The notes under the pieces were generated by a model. The model made no database searches and was not told where the DNA came from. It saw nothing but the letters and a program-made list of their open reading frames with translations. The position numbers were made by a program, and so were the translations under genes. Shown here one piece after another: positions 44,074-50,928 of a stretch of 51,837 bases of DNA (positions within the stretch are counted from its first letter, which is position 1; every line of letters begins with the position of its first letter). This DNA is from Methylophaga sp. (GTDB taxonomy: Bacteria; Pseudomonadota; Gammaproteobacteria; Nitrosococcales; Methylophagaceae), in NCBI GenBank assembly GCA_002696735.1, contig NZSL01000012.1:259042-310878 (forward strand), read 5' to 3'.

Positions 44074-44454
44074 TAGGGCTTGTTGATCTTTCATATCCAC
44101 CACTGCTGGCGGCTATTTTTGTGTCCGACAAGGCGGAAAGCACGCAGTGTAGCCATCCTACATAAGTGATTGACAACGTAGGCGGCCGCAAAAATAGTCC
44201 CAGCCCTTCGGGTTGTGACTTAAAAGCGCCACTCTGCGTGGCCTACAAGGATGTAGGTCAGGGGCGTGAGCAGGATGCGGAAGTTTTGCTCGTCGCTTAT
44301 TTAGAACAACTACAAAAACGTCAGGAACGTTTTTGAGCGCAAGCCTCTTCGGGGTGAGATACATGGATGTATCTCACAAAAGGCGCTCCTTGTGCCTTGA
44401 TTGACGCTTTTTCAGCTCACAACAGAGGCGGAGATGAAAGATCAACAAGCCCTG
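44074..44454 (+). repeat. Interspersed inverted-terminus repeat, copy 4 (about 380 bp, most complete)
   Basis: The left end AGGGCTTGTTGATCTTTCAT and the right end ATGAAAGATCAACAAGCCCT are exact complements. The terminal repeat extends to at least 24 bases with one mismatch. Flanking TA is present on the left (TG on the right). Internal palindromes include CCTACAAGGATGTAGG and GAGATACATGGATGTATCTC. It lies between lexA and galU, in the orientation opposite to copy 5 at the other end of the osmolyte operon. Confidence 0.9.
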
Positions 44455-44493: not shown

Positions 44494-45342
44494 TTACGAA
44501 CCATACTGCTTATTAAAGTAATAATTGGTAGCTTCAACATAACCGGCGATGCTGCCGCAATCAAAACGGTGTCCTTTAAATTTAACTGCCAGGACCGGTT
44601 TATCCTGCGCCATGGCCCGAATAGCATCGGTTATTTGCACTTCACCGTTAGCACCTGGGGGCGTTTTACGTAAATAATCGAAAATATCTGGAGTCAGAAC
44701 ATAACGGCCGATAATCGCCAGATTACTGGGCGCATCTTCAGGTTTTGGTTTTTCTACCATATCGGTAATGCGATATACATCCGGTTCAATTTCATCGCCT
44801 GAAATCACACCGTAGCTACCTGTTGCCTCGGCCGGAACTTCTTCAATTGCCACAATGGAACACTGGTGTTTCTGAAACAGATCAACCAGTTGGCCCAATG
44901 CCCGTTTGCCACCTGATTCTGGTGTTGCACATAGGTCATCTGCCAACAAGACTGCGAAAGCTTCATTACCGATAATTGGTTCACCGGTCAAAATGGCATG
45001 GCCCAACCCCAACATCGCGCGTTGACGCATAAAAATAAAATCACAGGAATCCATCACATTACGAATGTCATCCAGATGTGATTCTTTACTGGTTCCCTGA
45101 ATCTGATGTTCAAGTTCAAAGCTGGTATCAAAGTGATCTGCAATAGCTCTTTTACCTCGCCCAGTAATAAATCCCATACTGCGCAGGCCAGCCTCCATCG
45201 CTTCTTCAACACCATATTGAATTAATGGTTTATCAACTATGGGCAGCATTTCTTTAGGCATTGCCTTGGTTGCAGGCAAAAAACGTGTCCCATATCCGGC
45301 GACGGGAAACAGACATTTACGGATAGAAACGTTTGCTGTCAT
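44494..45342 (-). CDS. galU: UTP-glucose-1-phosphate uridylyltransferase
   Basis: A 282-residue nucleotidyltransferase making UDP-glucose from glucose-1-phosphate and UTP. The N-terminal activation loop FPVAGYGTRFLPATKAMPKE and the substrate region PLIQYGVEEAMEAG are present, with VLLADDLC as the metal-binding loop and GEVQITDAI. Full length. AAGGAT precedes the ATG. Last gene of the minus-strand operon kinase/phosphatase-gpgS-GH13-galU, where it turns glucose-1-phosphate released by the phosphorylase back into the sugar donor for GpgS. Confidence 0.95.
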   Translation of the reverse strand: MTANVSIRKCLFPVAGYGTRFLPATKAMPKEMLPIVDKPLIQYGVEEAMEAGLRSMGFITGRGKRAIADHFDTSFELEHQIQGTSKESHLDDIRNVMDSCDFIFMRQRAMLGLGHAILTGEPIIGNEAFAVLLADDLCATPESGGKRALGQLVDLFQKHQCSIVAIEEVPAEATGSYGVISGDEIEPDVYRITDMVEKPKPEDAPSNLAIIGRYVLTPDIFDYLRKTPPGANGEVQITDAIRAMAQDKPVLAVKFKGHRFDCGSIAGYVEATNYYFNKQYGS

Positions 45343-45378
45343 GAATAATAATCCTTATGTTTTATTAGGTGGCATAAA

Positions 45379-47136
45379 TCAGCGATTACTCAACCATACG
45401 CACTGATAAGGCGTTAGCTGAATTTCACTTTGCCAGGAGTCAGTTGCACGACCACTGATGAGATCATGCCATTCATCTGTCGCAACCAGATTGAGATCGG
45501 CAACGCGTAATGTTTGTGGCTGATCACTGATATTAAATATACAGAAGATGCTTTGATGACGATCAATACTTTGTCGCCAGAAGCCAAATAATGTATCACC
45601 GAGTTGCAAGGTAAATTGCGTTGCATTGGGATGAAAAGCTGGCTGCTCCATACGCAGCTTAATCAGTTCGGTCATTTTATGATAAATCTGATAATGGTTA
45701 TTGGCGGTATGCGTTAATGCTGCACGAATGGCCGCATCATCCCATTGATGACGGTTAATGGCGCGGTTATGTTGATGTTGTTCAAGTCGTTTGTAGTCGT
45801 TTCCTGTGGCTAGCAGGCTATGAATATAGATTCCGGGAATACCTTCCAGAGCGAGCATAATCGCATGGGCACAGATAAACCGTTCTTGTTGCCATTTATC
45901 AGGACCTTTAACGGTTCCTTGTAGTGCATCAAATAGCGCAATATTTATTTCATAAGGTTTCTTGATATTGTTTTCAGCCGCGCGCCAGGAGATTTCCCCC
46001 CCGAACCCCTGCATAGTGGAAATCAATGAGGCTATTTCACTATCGGTCAATAAACCCTCGGCGGGTCTTAAACCAATGCCATCATGTGATGCAATAAAGT
46101 TAAAATAGGCTGTGCCGTTTTGAGCCGGCGGCATACTCATTAACCATTGACGTAAATAACTGCAATTTCCGGTTAAAAGTGTATTCAATAAAAGCGGTGG
46201 TAACGAAAAGTTATAAATCCAGTGTGCTTCATTGGCATTACCGAAATAACTGAGGTTTTCCCGATTTGGGATATTGGTTTCCGTGATAATGACGGCATCA
46301 CTTTTAGCCTGTTCGATCAGTAAACGTAATAGCCTGACCAATTCATGTGTCTGGGGCAAATTAAGACAATTGGTCCCAGCCTGTTTCCATAAAAAAGCCA
46401 CAGCATCCAGACGAAACAGACAGATCCCCTGATCCAGATAAAACCGAATAATCTTTACAAAGGTTTTGAGTACCTCGGTGTTACGAAAATCAAAATCCAC
46501 TTGCTCATGACTGAAAGTGCACCAGACATTTTTAATCCCGTCTGCAGTCTCAGTCTCTCTCAACAACGGCGAGGTACGTGGACGAACCACTGAAGAAATA
46601 GGGGTATCAGACTCACAGGTATAAAAATAATCATGGCCCTCACCATGCCCGGCAATAAAGTTCTTAAACCACTGACTGCTGCTTGAACCATGATTAATGA
46701 CCAGATCCGCCATCAATCGATAATCTTTGGCGATAGCCTTGATATCTTCCCAGTCACCCAACTCGGGATTTACCTGGAAAAAATCCTTAACTGCAAAACC
46801 ATCGTCACTGCAAAAAGGAAAAAACGGCAGGATATGCACACTATTAATGTAGCCAGCAAAATAATCATCCAGAAACCGCTTGAGTGTCTGCAAGGGCGGT
46901 TCATCATTCTTCAATATGCTATTACCATAGGTAATCATAGTGATATCAGAGGCATGCCATTTATTCTGATGCGGTTGTGGCGCTGGTGCATCTGGATTTA
47001 CCCGCATAGTAGCCAGTAATTCATGTGCTAAAGAGGCTAGTACTTTGGGTTCAATAAAATCGCCATACACCTTGTTCAGGTGATAAAGCACATTTTGGAA
47101 AACTGCCGGGCGTTCAGATGTTTGTGTCATAACCAT
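45379..47136 (-). CDS. ggaP: GH13 sucrose-phosphorylase-like enzyme, probably glucosylglycerate phosphorylase
   Basis: A 585-residue glycoside hydrolase of the sucrose-phosphorylase subfamily (GH13_18). Barrel signatures: INSVHILPFFPFCSDDGFAV, ADLVINHGSSSS, nucleophile Asp in FRLDAVAFLW, acid/base Glu in VIITETNIPN, and SHDGIG. Relatives such as E. coli YcjM phosphorolyse glucosylglycerate to alpha-glucose-1-phosphate and D-glycerate. Position between gpgS and galU points to this substrate rather than sucrose. It begins 2 bases after the gpgS stop. ATG 47130 is an alternative start. Sucrose or glucosylglycerol remain possible substrates. Confidence 0.85.
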   Translation of the reverse strand: MVMTQTSERPAVFQNVLYHLNKVYGDFIEPKVLASLAHELLATMRVNPDAPAPQPHQNKWHASDITMITYGNSILKNDEPPLQTLKRFLDDYFAGYINSVHILPFFPFCSDDGFAVKDFFQVNPELGDWEDIKAIAKDYRLMADLVINHGSSSSQWFKNFIAGHGEGHDYFYTCESDTPISSVVRPRTSPLLRETETADGIKNVWCTFSHEQVDFDFRNTEVLKTFVKIIRFYLDQGICLFRLDAVAFLWKQAGTNCLNLPQTHELVRLLRLLIEQAKSDAVIITETNIPNRENLSYFGNANEAHWIYNFSLPPLLLNTLLTGNCSYLRQWLMSMPPAQNGTAYFNFIASHDGIGLRPAEGLLTDSEIASLISTMQGFGGEISWRAAENNIKKPYEINIALFDALQGTVKGPDKWQQERFICAHAIMLALEGIPGIYIHSLLATGNDYKRLEQHQHNRAINRHQWDDAAIRAALTHTANNHYQIYHKMTELIKLRMEQPAFHPNATQFTLQLGDTLFGFWRQSIDRHQSIFCIFNISDQPQTLRVADLNLVATDEWHDLISGRATDSWQSEIQLTPYQCVWLSNR

Positions 47137-47138
47137 TC

Positions 47139-48362
47139 TTATGCAGAAAATTCCTGATAGTCTTCTTCAACGGCTTGATAAATTCGCTCGAAGATATCCG
47201 GTAAGGCACTTTGCACACGATTCCAGCTAGGAATAAATGGCGTCTCCATCGGGTTGTCCAGAAAAGCCTGACCAGCATCCATGATGTTACGGGCAAACAT
47301 TTCCACAGAGGCTTCTTCCTGATGAATATCAAATTGCAAACCGTTCATCACCGCATCATTTCGATAGGTTTCCACGAAATCCAGAGCAATCCGATAATAG
47401 GTCGCTTTAATACTGCGGAAATGCTCGGGACTGAATACGGTGCCTTTGGTCGCGAGTTTTCGAAATAATGCCTTGGAAATATCTATCGACATTTTCGACA
47501 AACCGCTGTGTTGATCATCGGATGAGAGATCCTGATGTTTGTGATCGTAAATATCAGCAATATCCACCTGACATAGACGGTTGTTCGCATAATTACGGTG
47601 CATTTCTGATAGCACGCCAATTTCCAGACCCCAGTCGCTGGGAATACGAATATCGTTTAATACATCACGGCGAAACGAAAACTCACCGGCCAATGAATAG
47701 CGAAAACTGTCCATGTAATCCAGATAATCACTTGGTCCCATGACCGATTTGAGAGCACGTAACAGGGGGGTAATTAATAGACGATTCACCCGGCCATTCA
47801 TTTTCCCGCCGGCGACCCGCGCATAATAACCTTTACAGAACTCATAATTAAACATGGGATTGGCAACAGGATAAATCAGTCGAGCCAACAGTTCGGTACT
47901 GTAGGTGGTAATGTCGCAATCATGCAGGGCAATTGATTCTGCTTTTCCAGAAGCTAAAATATAACCCATGCAATACCAGACATTACGCCCCTTACCGGCC
48001 TGATGAGGGGCAAGATTCAGGGCCTGTAACTCTGCATCAATAGCACTTAACCGTGGTCCATCGTGCCACATGATTCGATGATGTTGTGGGAGATCCGCGA
48101 AAAAGCTCAACGCATGTTTATACTCATCAGCACTGGCTCTATCCAGTCCAATCACAATTTCTGATAAATATGGCACTGTTTTCAATTGTTGAACAATTGC
48201 TGGAAGCGCCTCTCCCTGCAGTTCTGAAAATAATGAGGGTAGCAATAATCCCATTGGACGCTGTTGACTGAAATGTACAAGATCCTGCTCTAAATCAGCC
48301 AGATGACGATGCGTAAGATTATGTAATGTTGTGATAATACCGTTCTGATGAAAATCTGCCAT
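47139..48362 (-). CDS. gpgS: Glucosyl-3-phosphoglycerate synthase (GT81)
   Basis: A 407-residue GT-A glycosyltransferase that joins NDP-glucose and 3-phosphoglycerate. Seen: EIVIGLDR, GKGRNVWYCMGYILASG, the metal-binding LHDCDITTY, VNRLLITPLLRAL, and SLAGEFSFRRDVLNDIRIP followed by WGLEIGVLSEMHRN, which parallels the SGEY...GVEIGLL region of mycobacterial GpgS. AGAGG precedes the ATG. It lies 17 bases after the kinase-phosphatase gene, whose C-terminal domain should remove the phosphate from its product. Confidence 0.92.
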   Translation of the reverse strand: MADFHQNGIITTLHNLTHRHLADLEQDLVHFSQQRPMGLLLPSLFSELQGEALPAIVQQLKTVPYLSEIVIGLDRASADEYKHALSFFADLPQHHRIMWHDGPRLSAIDAELQALNLAPHQAGKGRNVWYCMGYILASGKAESIALHDCDITTYSTELLARLIYPVANPMFNYEFCKGYYARVAGGKMNGRVNRLLITPLLRALKSVMGPSDYLDYMDSFRYSLAGEFSFRRDVLNDIRIPSDWGLEIGVLSEMHRNYANNRLCQVDIADIYDHKHQDLSSDDQHSGLSKMSIDISKALFRKLATKGTVFSPEHFRSIKATYYRIALDFVETYRNDAVMNGLQFDIHQEEASVEMFARNIMDAGQAFLDNPMETPFIPSWNRVQSALPDIFERIYQAVEEDYQEFSA

Positions 48363-48379
48363 GTGAGCCTCTTGTGATT

Positions 48380-50143
48380 TTAATGCACTATTGCTGTGCT
48401 TATATGGAGCTGCTTCAAGACTTGTTGTACGCCTTCAGCCCAACCTCTTGGGCCGCAATGTGTTGCCTTCATAACATCATGATGGCGAGTTAATTTGGGT
48501 AATGAATTTACCGGTGAAGGGATCAAGAGGGCCATGTCGGCTGTTTCCAGCATGGCCACATCATTTTGACTGTCTCCAATCGCCAGGCTGGTAAAGCGTT
48601 TATCCGGGCAAAAATGTTCGTAAACCTGTTTAAGCCATTCGATAGCACGACCTTTGTCGCACTGACCAGAAACGTGTAAAAAGCGGCCACCGATTAATAC
48701 CTGGGCGCCCCGTTTACGGACTTCTTCAATAAATTGTTTTTGTTTACCGGGATTGCCATGCCAGGCCAGCGCTTCGCCATATTGTCTTCTGGCAGCACGC
48801 GCAGCTGCATGAACATCCAGGCCGGTCATGGCAATGATGCCATCTATACCTGCCTGCGCAAATGTAGTGAAATCATCACTAAATAAAGGTTTCACTGATT
48901 TGATAATCGACTGCCAATGTGCGCGGGGCTGAACAAATTCTTTTACCCAATATTGACCACTTGTTTTGGTATCGGCTGGTTGCTCAGGAAAATAATCAAC
49001 CGGAATAAAAATAGCGGCGCCATTTTCACAGATAAAAGGATGAGGGTTATCCAGAGAAACATTTATCTGTTCAATTTCCGACTGGGTTTTGCTACTGACC
49101 GGAATCAGCGGGATTTGTAACTGTTTGAGATTTTGTAACACGGGATCCGCCTCATCATGCCGGTAGTTATGATGATCCAGAAGACTGCCATCCAAATCAG
49201 TAAAAACCAGTAAGGATGCTTTGGGGCAGGTAACTGAAGGAGGCGATTTTTTCGGACGTTTCAAGGCCACAATTTCTCTTTCCATATTGAGTTCAAAAAC
49301 ATAATCCATTTGCTCCGGTAAAGTTTCCAGACAATGTTGAGTGATACGTTGGTAATACTGAATAAAACGCGAAATATCCTCAGCAGTCATAATTTTGTTG
49401 CTTACTGTAGCTGCTGTTTGTTGCAGTTTTTCTTCCTGTTCCAGTCGCCAGTTATAAACGCAATCAAAATTAGGGGCCTTAAGCATGATCCAGCTATCAA
49501 CGCGCTGAAAAAGGGCAGGGTAGTCCTGTTCCAGCTTTTGATTCACATAACGTCGCCAATAGGCATCTGGATCATCATTATGTTCCAAAGCATTTACCGG
49601 CAGCGTTAACAATTCATCCGATTGTGGACAGGCCCCCATGCACCAGCCTTCCAGAATAATAAACTTGGGCGCAGCCTCTAATACCGGCCATTGTTCTACA
49701 GGAAATCGATCATCATGCGCTTTATCAAACCGTGGAATCGCAATGTTTTTTCTTTCCGAGAGCAATTTATCGAGGGTCGTCAATGCCAGTTCAATATCAT
49801 GTGTTCCCGGCACCCCACGAGTCGCTAATAAAGGATGAACTGAATTCGCTAAATCAATGCGTTGCTGATGGGTGAGATAAAAGTCATCGAGAGAGAGGGC
49901 AATGGCAGTCTGATGGTGTTTAGTGATGAGTAACTGCACCAGACATTCGGCTAAGGTACTTTTTCCGGACCCTTGCGCACCATGAATGCCGATGATTATA
50001 GGGCGCTTCGCTCTTTTTTGGTGCAATATAAAATCATCAGTAATGTCTGAAAACCAGTGATCAATCTGTTGAGCATATTTAGCTGAGAGCTGATGCGCGC
50101 TCAGGAAATTCTGAATGTTTGTAGAGGGATTGACCATCACCAT
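48380..50143 (-). CDS. Fused D-glycerate 3-kinase (GLYK) and glucosyl/mannosyl-3-phosphoglycerate phosphatase (HAD)
   Basis: About 587 residues in two domains. Residues about 1-300 resemble plant-type glycerate kinase GLYK: P-loop GIHGAQGSGKSTL, LSLDDFYLT, RGVPGTHDIEL, IPRFDKAHDDRFP, and IILEGWCMG. Residues about 315-575 form an MpgP-type HAD phosphatase: motif I VFTDLDGSLLD, motif II PVSSKT, ICENGAAI, GGRFLHVSG and motif IV AIGDSQND. Predicted reactions are D-glycerate -> 3-phosphoglycerate, and glucosyl-3-phosphoglycerate -> glucosylglycerate. ATG 50143 has GGAACAGG upstream. ATG 50137 and TTG 50155 are alternatives. First gene of the operon. Confidence 0.88.
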   Translation of the reverse strand: MVMVNPSTNIQNFLSAHQLSAKYAQQIDHWFSDITDDFILHQKRAKRPIIIGIHGAQGSGKSTLAECLVQLLITKHHQTAIALSLDDFYLTHQQRIDLANSVHPLLATRGVPGTHDIELALTTLDKLLSERKNIAIPRFDKAHDDRFPVEQWPVLEAAPKFIILEGWCMGACPQSDELLTLPVNALEHNDDPDAYWRRYVNQKLEQDYPALFQRVDSWIMLKAPNFDCVYNWRLEQEEKLQQTAATVSNKIMTAEDISRFIQYYQRITQHCLETLPEQMDYVFELNMEREIVALKRPKKSPPSVTCPKASLLVFTDLDGSLLDHHNYRHDEADPVLQNLKQLQIPLIPVSSKTQSEIEQINVSLDNPHPFICENGAAIFIPVDYFPEQPADTKTSGQYWVKEFVQPRAHWQSIIKSVKPLFSDDFTTFAQAGIDGIIAMTGLDVHAAARAARRQYGEALAWHGNPGKQKQFIEEVRKRGAQVLIGGRFLHVSGQCDKGRAIEWLKQVYEHFCPDKRFTSLAIGDSQNDVAMLETADMALLIPSPVNSLPKLTRHHDVMKATHCGPRGWAEGVQQVLKQLHISTAIVH

Positions 50144-50216
50144 TGCCTGTTCCAATCGATATTAAATCAGCCTGACGCAAGTTTCATACCGGGATAGTGA
50201 AAAACTCCATTCACAC

Positions 50217-50406
50217 TAGGGCCTGTTGCTCTTTCATAGCCACCTCTGTTATGACTGAAAATGTGCCAATTAAGTCGCGAGCAGAGCATTTTGTGAGATA
50301 CATCCATGTATCTCACCCTTTTGGGGCTTGAGCCCAAAAACACTCCCGGCGTTTTTATGGTCATTCTAAATAAACGCAGAGTGGTGCATTTTCAGCCTCA
50401 ACCCTA
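50217..50406 (-). repeat. Interspersed repeat, copy 5 (about 190 bp half element, inverted)
   Basis: It starts TAGGGCCTGTTGCTCTTTCA followed by CCACCTCTGTTATGACTG, the reverse of the usual right half. It includes the palindrome GAGATACATCCATGTATCTC. It stops at CTCAACCCTA, which corresponds to the internal GGGTTG point of full copies. It lies 73 bases upstream of the osmolyte operon. Confidence 0.8.
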
Positions 50407-50928
50407 ACGATAAAGCCATCTTGATGAACTAAAGCCGAAGGCTAAGATAAATGTAAACTTCCTAGATCAGATGATTGTTATGAAGAATTATTAGAAGTTT
50501 TTCCACAAAGACAGCTTTGAGTGGAAAAATTTACTTGGTTTTGTGATGAAACATTTTAAAACCATTAAAACTTTAGAGAATAACAAAAGGGCAAAAAAAA
50601 AGGGTAAACCCGAAGGTTTACCCAAAGCTCAGCACGCAGCGAGAGAGAACGAACATGCACTGAAGAAAACTACAATTGTGTTATTGCATGAAGGATGCCA
50701 AGATTGTAGTTACAATAAAAACAATGACTTATGAATTTATCAAAAAATTTAAGTCCATTTTTCGCACCACAAAACAGCAGTCGTGCACCTCAGCAGCGCA
50801 TCTCCAGGGCTGTAGATCTTTTCTAACCACGTTGTACAAAATTAAACTCCAGAAAAAGTATCTCTGAAAGATCAACTGACCCAAGTGCTCAACAAAGGAA
50901 TTTTTCCTGACTCATTGTTGGTCAATAC
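50407..50928. other. Intergenic stretch with no supported protein gene
   Basis: Short ORFs here lack ribosome sites. It contains an imperfect 12-bp hairpin (50495-50506 / 50521-50532, TTTTTCCAC / GTGGAAAAA) and the minus-strand terminator described separately. A/T-rich, with no recognisable promoter on either strand. Confidence 0.5.
50592..50623 (-). terminator. Orphan rho-independent terminator on the minus strand
   Basis: A 9-bp perfect stem GGGTAAACC / GGTTTACCC. On the minus strand it has a TTCG tetraloop and is followed by T9. No minus-strand gene lies within at least 1.2 kb upstream of it, so it probably ends a non-coding transcript. Confidence 0.8.

Follow-up and report, generated by a model that had tools for sequence, protein, structure and literature searches.

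According to a section of a 2020 review (PMC7178133), genes for glucosylglycerate phosphorylase (GGaP) are often accompanied by genes for glycerate kinase, the synthase GpgS or the phosphatase GpgP. The same section reports the proposal that GGaP is a regulator or a sink of the solute, and states that its metabolic function has not been experimentally confirmed. Part of a further report links glucosylglycerate to nitrogen limitation (PMC11009771). Here we examine four adjoining genes, predicted to encode a kinase/phosphatase fusion, GpgS, a GH13 phosphorylase and GalU, in a 51,837-nucleotide stretch of a Methylophaga sp. genome (contig NZSL01000012.1; the whole stretch is hereafter the window). 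These genes probably constitute one operon that both makes and reclaims glucosylglycerate, is read by sigma54 RNA polymerase, and is activated by nitrogen starvation, most likely via NtrC.

The basic parts list of such a loop is already known, and its core cluster is widespread among the Gammaproteobacteria that were examined. The original prediction had called the combination the least familiar system in the window; this was too strong, given these common clusters and the gene sets described in the review. Two features mark out the lineage: the fusion, which also turns up in other groups, and an additional galU behind the GH13 gene, which is confined to the window genus among the loci examined.

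The probable operon and its predicted enzymes

The four genes occupy 50143-44494 of the window, on the minus strand, in the following order:

48380..50143, minus strand: kinase/HAD-phosphatase fusion, 587 amino acids from the ATG; by family matches, a GLYK-type D-glycerate 3-kinase domain followed by a HAD-IIB phosphatase (MpgP/GpgP type) domain
47139..48362, minus strand: predicted GpgS, glucosyl-3-phosphoglycerate synthase; matches NF040724 over its full length but under the cut-off, and solved GpgS weakly
45379..47136, minus strand: GH13_18 phosphorylase, most likely GGaP, with both GGaP motifs and below the sucrose phosphorylase cut-off
44494..45342, minus strand: GalU, UTP--glucose-1-phosphate uridylyltransferase, one of two copies in the genome; above the TIGR01099 cut-off

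This order, and the gaps of 17, 2 and 36 bases between successive genes, are the same in the open-frame list as in the original prediction. The frame of the fusion spans 48380-50155 from a TTG, with an in-frame ATG at 50143. Judged by GpgS, the closest named relative is Methylophaga muralis (95% identical, in a list from which the window's own record was possibly omitted), and the host is probably a marine, methanol-eating bacterium.

A search of the family covered 57 genomes: 24 from the window genus (its own genome included), 29 from a sister genus (g3) and four from two further genera. Carriers of gpgS number 27, comprising 21 of 24, 6 of 29 and 0 of 4, respectively. The whole stretch is held by 23 same-family loci (L031-L050, L052, L053 and the window, L062; the incomplete L051 and L054-L058 are excluded), and in all 23 the kinase, HAD, GpgS and GH13 regions are consecutive on one strand. 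The arrangement is therefore more than chance.

The GH13 protein carries the most specific marks. A strict GGaP is marked by a (T/S)ETN motif at strand beta-5 and by a Glu that replaces Gln in loop A (PMC7178133). The window protein has TETN at residues 285-288, and its loop A reads KPYEIN, with the Glu in PYE. In an alignment of 60 rows, in which the window is entered twice (win and L062), 58 rows cover the first site, 57 of them with TETN (L112 is the sole exception), and 59 cover loop A, all with the Glu. The nearest solved relatives are sucrose and glucosylglycerol phosphorylases; at these sites, 7qqj and 7xdq have PEIH/PEVH and YQ, that is, Gln in loop A. The catalytic residues of GH13 enzymes are Asp, Glu and Asp, and D244, E286 and D352 of the window protein align with both structures. 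Against the sucrose phosphorylase model TIGR03852, the protein scores 213.3 bits, under the cut-off of 334.4, and on this score and the two motifs we reject a sucrose phosphorylase identity. From its sequence, the protein is most likely a GGaP, and the case that the original prediction had named against itself, a GH13 enzyme acting only on sucrose, is disfavoured by the signature. In L112 (4444-6651), the GH13 relative adjoins gpgS and reads VEAN instead of TETN, so its specificity may have changed.

The kinase domain is a P-loop kinase that belongs with D-glycerate 3-kinases. Its nearest solved relative is a GLYK (7xpc, E 3.9e-24), while pantothenate kinase 3tqc matches at only 1.1e-4. The HAD domain belongs to the MPGP family (203.5 bits against TIGR01486, cut-off 164.75), a score that leaves the substrate undecided, and matches solved MpgP 3ztw at E 6.2e-26. 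GalU scores 389.8 bits against TIGR01099, above the cut-off of 326.8. The synthase aligns with NF040724 over residues 3-405 of 407. Its profile match to solved 3ckj is weak, as is that to 7pdo (profile E 6.9e-7), where GKG and D-x-D fall in register and the His region less clearly. The GKG, D-x-D and HKH stretches are invariant across the 20 sequences of alignment A1, and no Pfam family matched the protein at E 0.001. We take it to be of the GT81 type.

Two of these results weigh against the assignments. The 372.4 bits of the synthase lie below the curated NF040724 cut-off of 700, which places it outside that family by score, and the top-scoring models for the HAD domain carry the name of a mannosyl substrate (mannosyl-3-phosphoglycerate phosphatase). 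We suggest that the synthase works like GpgS, without claiming NF040724 membership. Overall, the profile and structure matches to GLYK, MpgP-type HAD, GpgS, GH13_18 and GalU bear out, at the level of sequence, the five enzymes that the original prediction assigned to the four genes. The activities themselves are those expected from family and motif.

A closed loop or two routes

The solute would be 2-O-alpha-glucosylglycerate, an anionic compatible solute. In the proposed scheme, the kinase domain would convert D-glycerate to 3-phosphoglycerate, GpgS would add glucose from UDP-glucose, and the HAD domain would remove the phosphate to give glucosylglycerate. GH13 would then split glucosylglycerate with phosphate into glucose-1-phosphate and D-glycerate, and a dedicated GalU would return glucose-1-phosphate to UDP-glucose. 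Run all at once, the five steps would amount to a futile cycle that wastes ATP and UTP, and control would therefore be needed. The closed loop of the original prediction stands as chemistry that these enzymes would allow; that it runs as a loop can only be inferred, since central metabolism also uses 3-phosphoglycerate, glucose-1-phosphate and UDP-glucose.

A dedicated role for the operon GalU is favoured by the presence of a separate galU copy (G000:C7:312057-312881, 77% identical to the operon GalU), which adjoins genes resembling galE and manC by eye, in a cluster of polysaccharide type. Beside the latter cluster lie five adjacent genes for small, secreted-looking proteins with PEP-CTERM-like tails (L062:15221-19268).

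Since every intermediate is common to central metabolism, the operon could instead serve two one-way routes, with synthesis drawing on central 3-phosphoglycerate and UDP-glucose, catabolism leading into glycolysis via the kinase and phosphorylase, and GalU supplying UDP-glucose for synthesis only. We regard this as a serious contender, though a somewhat improbable one. One argument for it comes from a scan that returned at least 596 matching stretches, of which the best 80 were taken as named loci. The phosphatase, GpgS and GH13 occur in that order on one strand in 80 of these 80. The kinase is found in 53. Of the 79 loci in which its absence can be judged (with at least 1100 bases before the phosphatase, or with the kinase visible), 26 lack it, which also counts against the closed loop as we read it. 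GalU follows GH13 in only one, a Methylophaga, of the 75 with 1000 bases downstream. Most relatives thus manage without the closing steps in the cluster. A non-homologous glycerate kinase was sought in the kinase-less clusters by inspecting by eye, at 12 of the 26 loci, the closest long frame on the plus strand ahead of the phosphatase; none resembled one, and four of the frames (L140, L144, L173, L191) did not look gene-like.

Within the window genus, by contrast, the closing steps have been drawn together, which favours local recycling. GalU follows GH13 in 20 of 20 genus loci with that downstream side (L031-L048, L054 and L062), against 0 of 5 sister-genus loci (L049, L050, L052, L053 and L058). 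The kinase and phosphatase form one open frame in 20 of 21 genus loci, counting the window; in L047, a stop lies inside the kinase. In g3, they form one frame at three loci and two frames at two (L049, L055). The single-frame fusion is recurrent outside the genus: it is present in one of 40 loci from the wider class (L094) and in five of the best 80 named loci (two Methylophagaceae, one Glaciecola, one Oleiphilaceae and one Pseudoalteromonas). Two genomes from other families encode a GalU-like domain close to the operon (L091:1692-2651 and L117:4133-6190), in one case at the C-terminal end of a 686-amino-acid frame, which suggests that the GalU step can be added in other ways.

Upstream signals and possible nitrogen control

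Four features are recognised in the DNA ahead of the genes:

50176..50191, minus strand: putative sigma54 (-24/-12) promoter element of the operon, CGGTATGAAACTTGCG
50594..50674, minus strand: putative small RNA gene of about 80 nucleotides, its 5' end placed from the promoter; intrinsic terminator at 50623-50602, followed by a T run
50686..50700, minus strand: sigma54 promoter element of the small RNA, TGGCATCCTTCATGC, with TGGCA....T..TGC invariant in 20 aligned copies
50763..50800, minus strand: two NtrC-box-like dyads, TGCGCTGCTGAGGTGCA (50800-50784, 11/12 match) and TGCTGTTTTGTGGTGCG (50779-50763, 9/12 match)

Alignment of the 130 bases before the kinase start reveals a single block, CGGTAYGANNNYTGCR, that all 21 genus loci share (the window included), with diverged flanks. 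The element has the GG-N10-GC spacing of sigma54 promoters, for which the consensus is TGGCACnnTTnTTGC (PMC8743547). Its support comes from conservation and not from its score, and we treat it as a candidate promoter. A simple sigma70 scan gave seven sites, against a shuffle mean of 16.0. The Escherichia coli NtrC box is TGCACCAnnnTGGTGCA (PMC8743547), and the better NtrC-like dyads stand at the small RNA promoter, about 600 bases from the operon element. The genome carries both ntrC (729 bits) and rpoN (504 bits).

Similar signals recur at glucosylglycerate loci outside the genus. Among 119 such loci for which 300 bases ahead of the first operon gene are available (5 sister-genus, 38 class and 76 named), a sigma54 score of at least 10/12 is reached by 26, compared with 6 of 1190 shuffles, 3 of 119 reverse strands and 9 of 482 regions upstream of other genes in the same loci. 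NtrC-like dyads of at least 10/12 occur at 41 of the 119, compared with 52 of 1190 shuffles, 0 of 95 intra-operon windows and 15 of the 482 other genes. By Fisher test, P is 4e-20 for the dyads and 7e-13 for sigma54; these values are too optimistic because the loci are related. Counted among named loci that can be assigned to a group (other metagenome-assembled genomes excluded), dyads are found in Shewanella (3/3), Vibrio (2/2), Thalassotalea (2/2), Microbulbifer (3/3), Amphritea (2/2) and Colwellia (1/3), and in none of the Marinobacter (0/4), Alteromonas (0/9) or Glaciecola (0/5) loci.

Apart from the relatedness of the loci, several observations weigh against nitrogen control. In the window, the operon element matches only 8 of 12 consensus positions, a level that 175 of 964 control frames attain as well, and no good NtrC box lies near it, the best within 350 bases being 8/12. 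Elsewhere, the 38 evenly drawn class loci give lower counts (NtrC-like 6/38, sigma54 2/38), the nine Alteromonas and five Glaciecola loci have neither signal at 10/12, and 55 of the 119 loci reach neither 9 for sigma54 nor 10 for a dyad, with both levels reached in only 17. Lastly, one group of phosphatase-first loci has its NtrC-like palindrome after the promoter but ahead of the start codon, where it might act as a hairpin in the RNA.

The small-RNA-like locus (50700-50594) consists of the promoter, a pyrimidine-rich middle and the terminator. Its fold in the window has a z of -4.2 against dinucleotide shuffles. The terminator stem covaries by one measure: both sides differ in 36 alignment cells, whereas shuffles average 16.0 +/- 3.1 and none of 500 attains that number. 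Two other measures of covariation are unremarkable (5 double-change pairs, reached by 37 of 500; 10 further pair types, reached by 470 of 500). A best dyad of at least 10/12 accompanies 18 of 22 copies, compared with 141 of 4400 windows drawn at random from those loci, a sample from which the sites themselves were not excluded. The small RNA adjoins the operon in 20 of the 21 genus genomes with gpgS, lies on the operon strand in 19 of 20 loci (the window included; inverted in L046), and is present as two tandem copies in both L035 and L036. In L042 (1730-3795 and 4127-5191), it is flanked by formate-dehydrogenase-like genes (NuoE/NuoF-type subunits, by eye) on one side and, towards the operon, by an intervening cation-efflux-like gene.

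The RNA was modelled as R1, searched in the family genomes and fetched loci, and as R2, searched additionally in 274 class genomes with strict filters. R1 is strong (80 bits or more) in 20 of the 24 genus genomes; of those without the RNA, G039, G042 and G051 also lack gpgS, and in G040 the contig starts inside it. At E 0.001, R2 has only two matches in the 274 class genomes, both in the window genus. At glucosylglycerate loci outside the genus, R1 gives only E 0.41 and 0.98 in 77 sources (39 class, 33 named and 5 sister-genus), and E 0.0017 (L198, Marinobacter, only 48 bases) and 0.53 over 46 further named loci, that is, four weak matches in 123 sources overall. In Rfam, three matches at E 1 or less all fall below the gathering score (best E 0.066), and no description of an operon-adjacent small RNA was found among the papers that our literature searches listed. 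Weak R2 matches of about 40 bits in the family (L269 and similar), and the R1 match in G005 (L244), were not counted, as the copies read lack the sigma54 element. L269 (G000:C3:589368-589493) and the weak R2 matches in G038, G040, G041, G045 and others appear to form a second RNA-like element, which shares TTCAGCTTC and TTTCTCTCTCC stretches and a terminator, and follows a response-regulator-like gene.

Alternatively, the upstream sigma54 and NtrC signals might act on the small RNA or on other genes nearby, and be unrelated to the operon. Relatives of the small RNA lie off the operon or on other contigs in four g3 genomes, two of which (G024 and G010) lack gpgS. Direct pairing of the RNA with the operon start sites was also dropped as an idea, since the duplexes are no stronger than controls (mean duplex energies lie between -15.5 and -22.2 across the four genes; controls average -21.0). 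We nonetheless consider this reading unlikely, as a separate conserved element stands directly before the operon, and as such signals are also over-represented at the glucosylglycerate operons of other families, where the small-RNA model gives nothing convincing.

The upstream DNA suggests that nitrogen starvation controls the operon, with sigma54 RNA polymerase reading it and NtrC as the most likely activator. During starvation, glutamate, which contains nitrogen, would be swapped for the nitrogen-free anion glucosylglycerate, and the latter would be reclaimed when nitrogen returns. The original prediction had guessed at nitrogen shifts without mentioning these signals, which lend the guess independent but indirect support. 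No report of sigma54/NtrC nitrogen-starvation control of a glucosylglycerate operon was found among the papers that our literature searches listed; such control would fit the published connection between the solute and nitrogen (PMC11009771, in part).

A broader proposal has, in our view, a little under an even chance: that glucosylglycerate operons of marine Gammaproteobacteria belong to the NtrC/sigma54 regulon, and that in Methylophaga one NtrC enhancer cluster serves the promoters of both operon and small RNA, such that nitrogen limitation switches on a nitrogen-free potassium counter-ion and retunes other genes via the RNA. If NtrC/sigma54 control is real, the purpose of the loop becomes directly testable: a nitrogen-free anion would be built when glutamate is scarce, and reclaiming it as glucose-1-phosphate once nitrogen is back would conserve the glycosidic-bond energy. 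Compatible-solute metabolism would then be tied to nitrogen status in many marine bacteria via one ordinary regulatory switch. Regulation is the part of this operon worth pursuing.

Copies of a repeat resembling miniature inverted-repeat transposable elements (MITEs), up to about 190 bases long, lie on both sides of the operon (50215-50407 and 44294-44453). At a threshold of E 0.001, the 867-base upstream region as a whole has 74 matches in the genome, a figure that includes the region itself and short end repeats.

Weaker alternatives and known systems

Two further readings concern the enzymes. In the first, the phosphorylase would act in reverse as a second synthetic enzyme, joining glucose-1-phosphate and glycerate directly, its reaction being reversible (PMC11009771, in part). 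This is very improbable, as the full UDP-glucose route adjoins the GH13 gene. Cell phosphate, moreover, usually favours phosphorolysis. Weakest of all is the reading in which the solute is mannosylglycerate, or GH13 a sucrose or glucosylglycerol phosphorylase, which the mannosyl-named HAD models and the solved GH13 relatives might suggest, but which we consider very improbable: the GH13 protein differs from 7qqj and 7xdq in both TETN and the loop-A Glu, the synthase is GpgS-like, and phosphatases of the MPGP family often tolerate more than one substrate.

Small RNAs dependent on NtrC and sigma54 occur in other bacteria, for example, NrsZ and NalA of Pseudomonas. The putative window RNA is like them in standing behind a sigma54-type promoter with NtrC-type sites. 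It differs in having no Rfam family at the gathering score, and in the restriction of its R2 matches at E 0.001 among class genomes to the window genus.

The GGaP neighbourhoods described in the review section (PMC7178133) resemble the operon in combining GGaP with genes for glycerate kinase, GpgS or GpgP. In the window, however, kinase and phosphatase are one protein and galU is a fourth gene, and that section is silent on upstream sigma54 or NtrC-like signals. The Marinobacter glucosylglycerol phosphorylase and fused synthase/phosphatase, as presented in part of PMC10873239, follow a common make-and-break logic for a related glucoside, again with fused enzymes; the solute and the fusion partners are different. 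Mycobacterial glucosylglycerate, in the relevant parts of PMC11009771 and PMC11768025, is likewise tied to nitrogen starvation and recovery. Mycobacteria reclaim the solute by means of a hydrolase, whereas the window operon would do so with a phosphorylase, and behind upstream signals of the sigma54/NtrC type.

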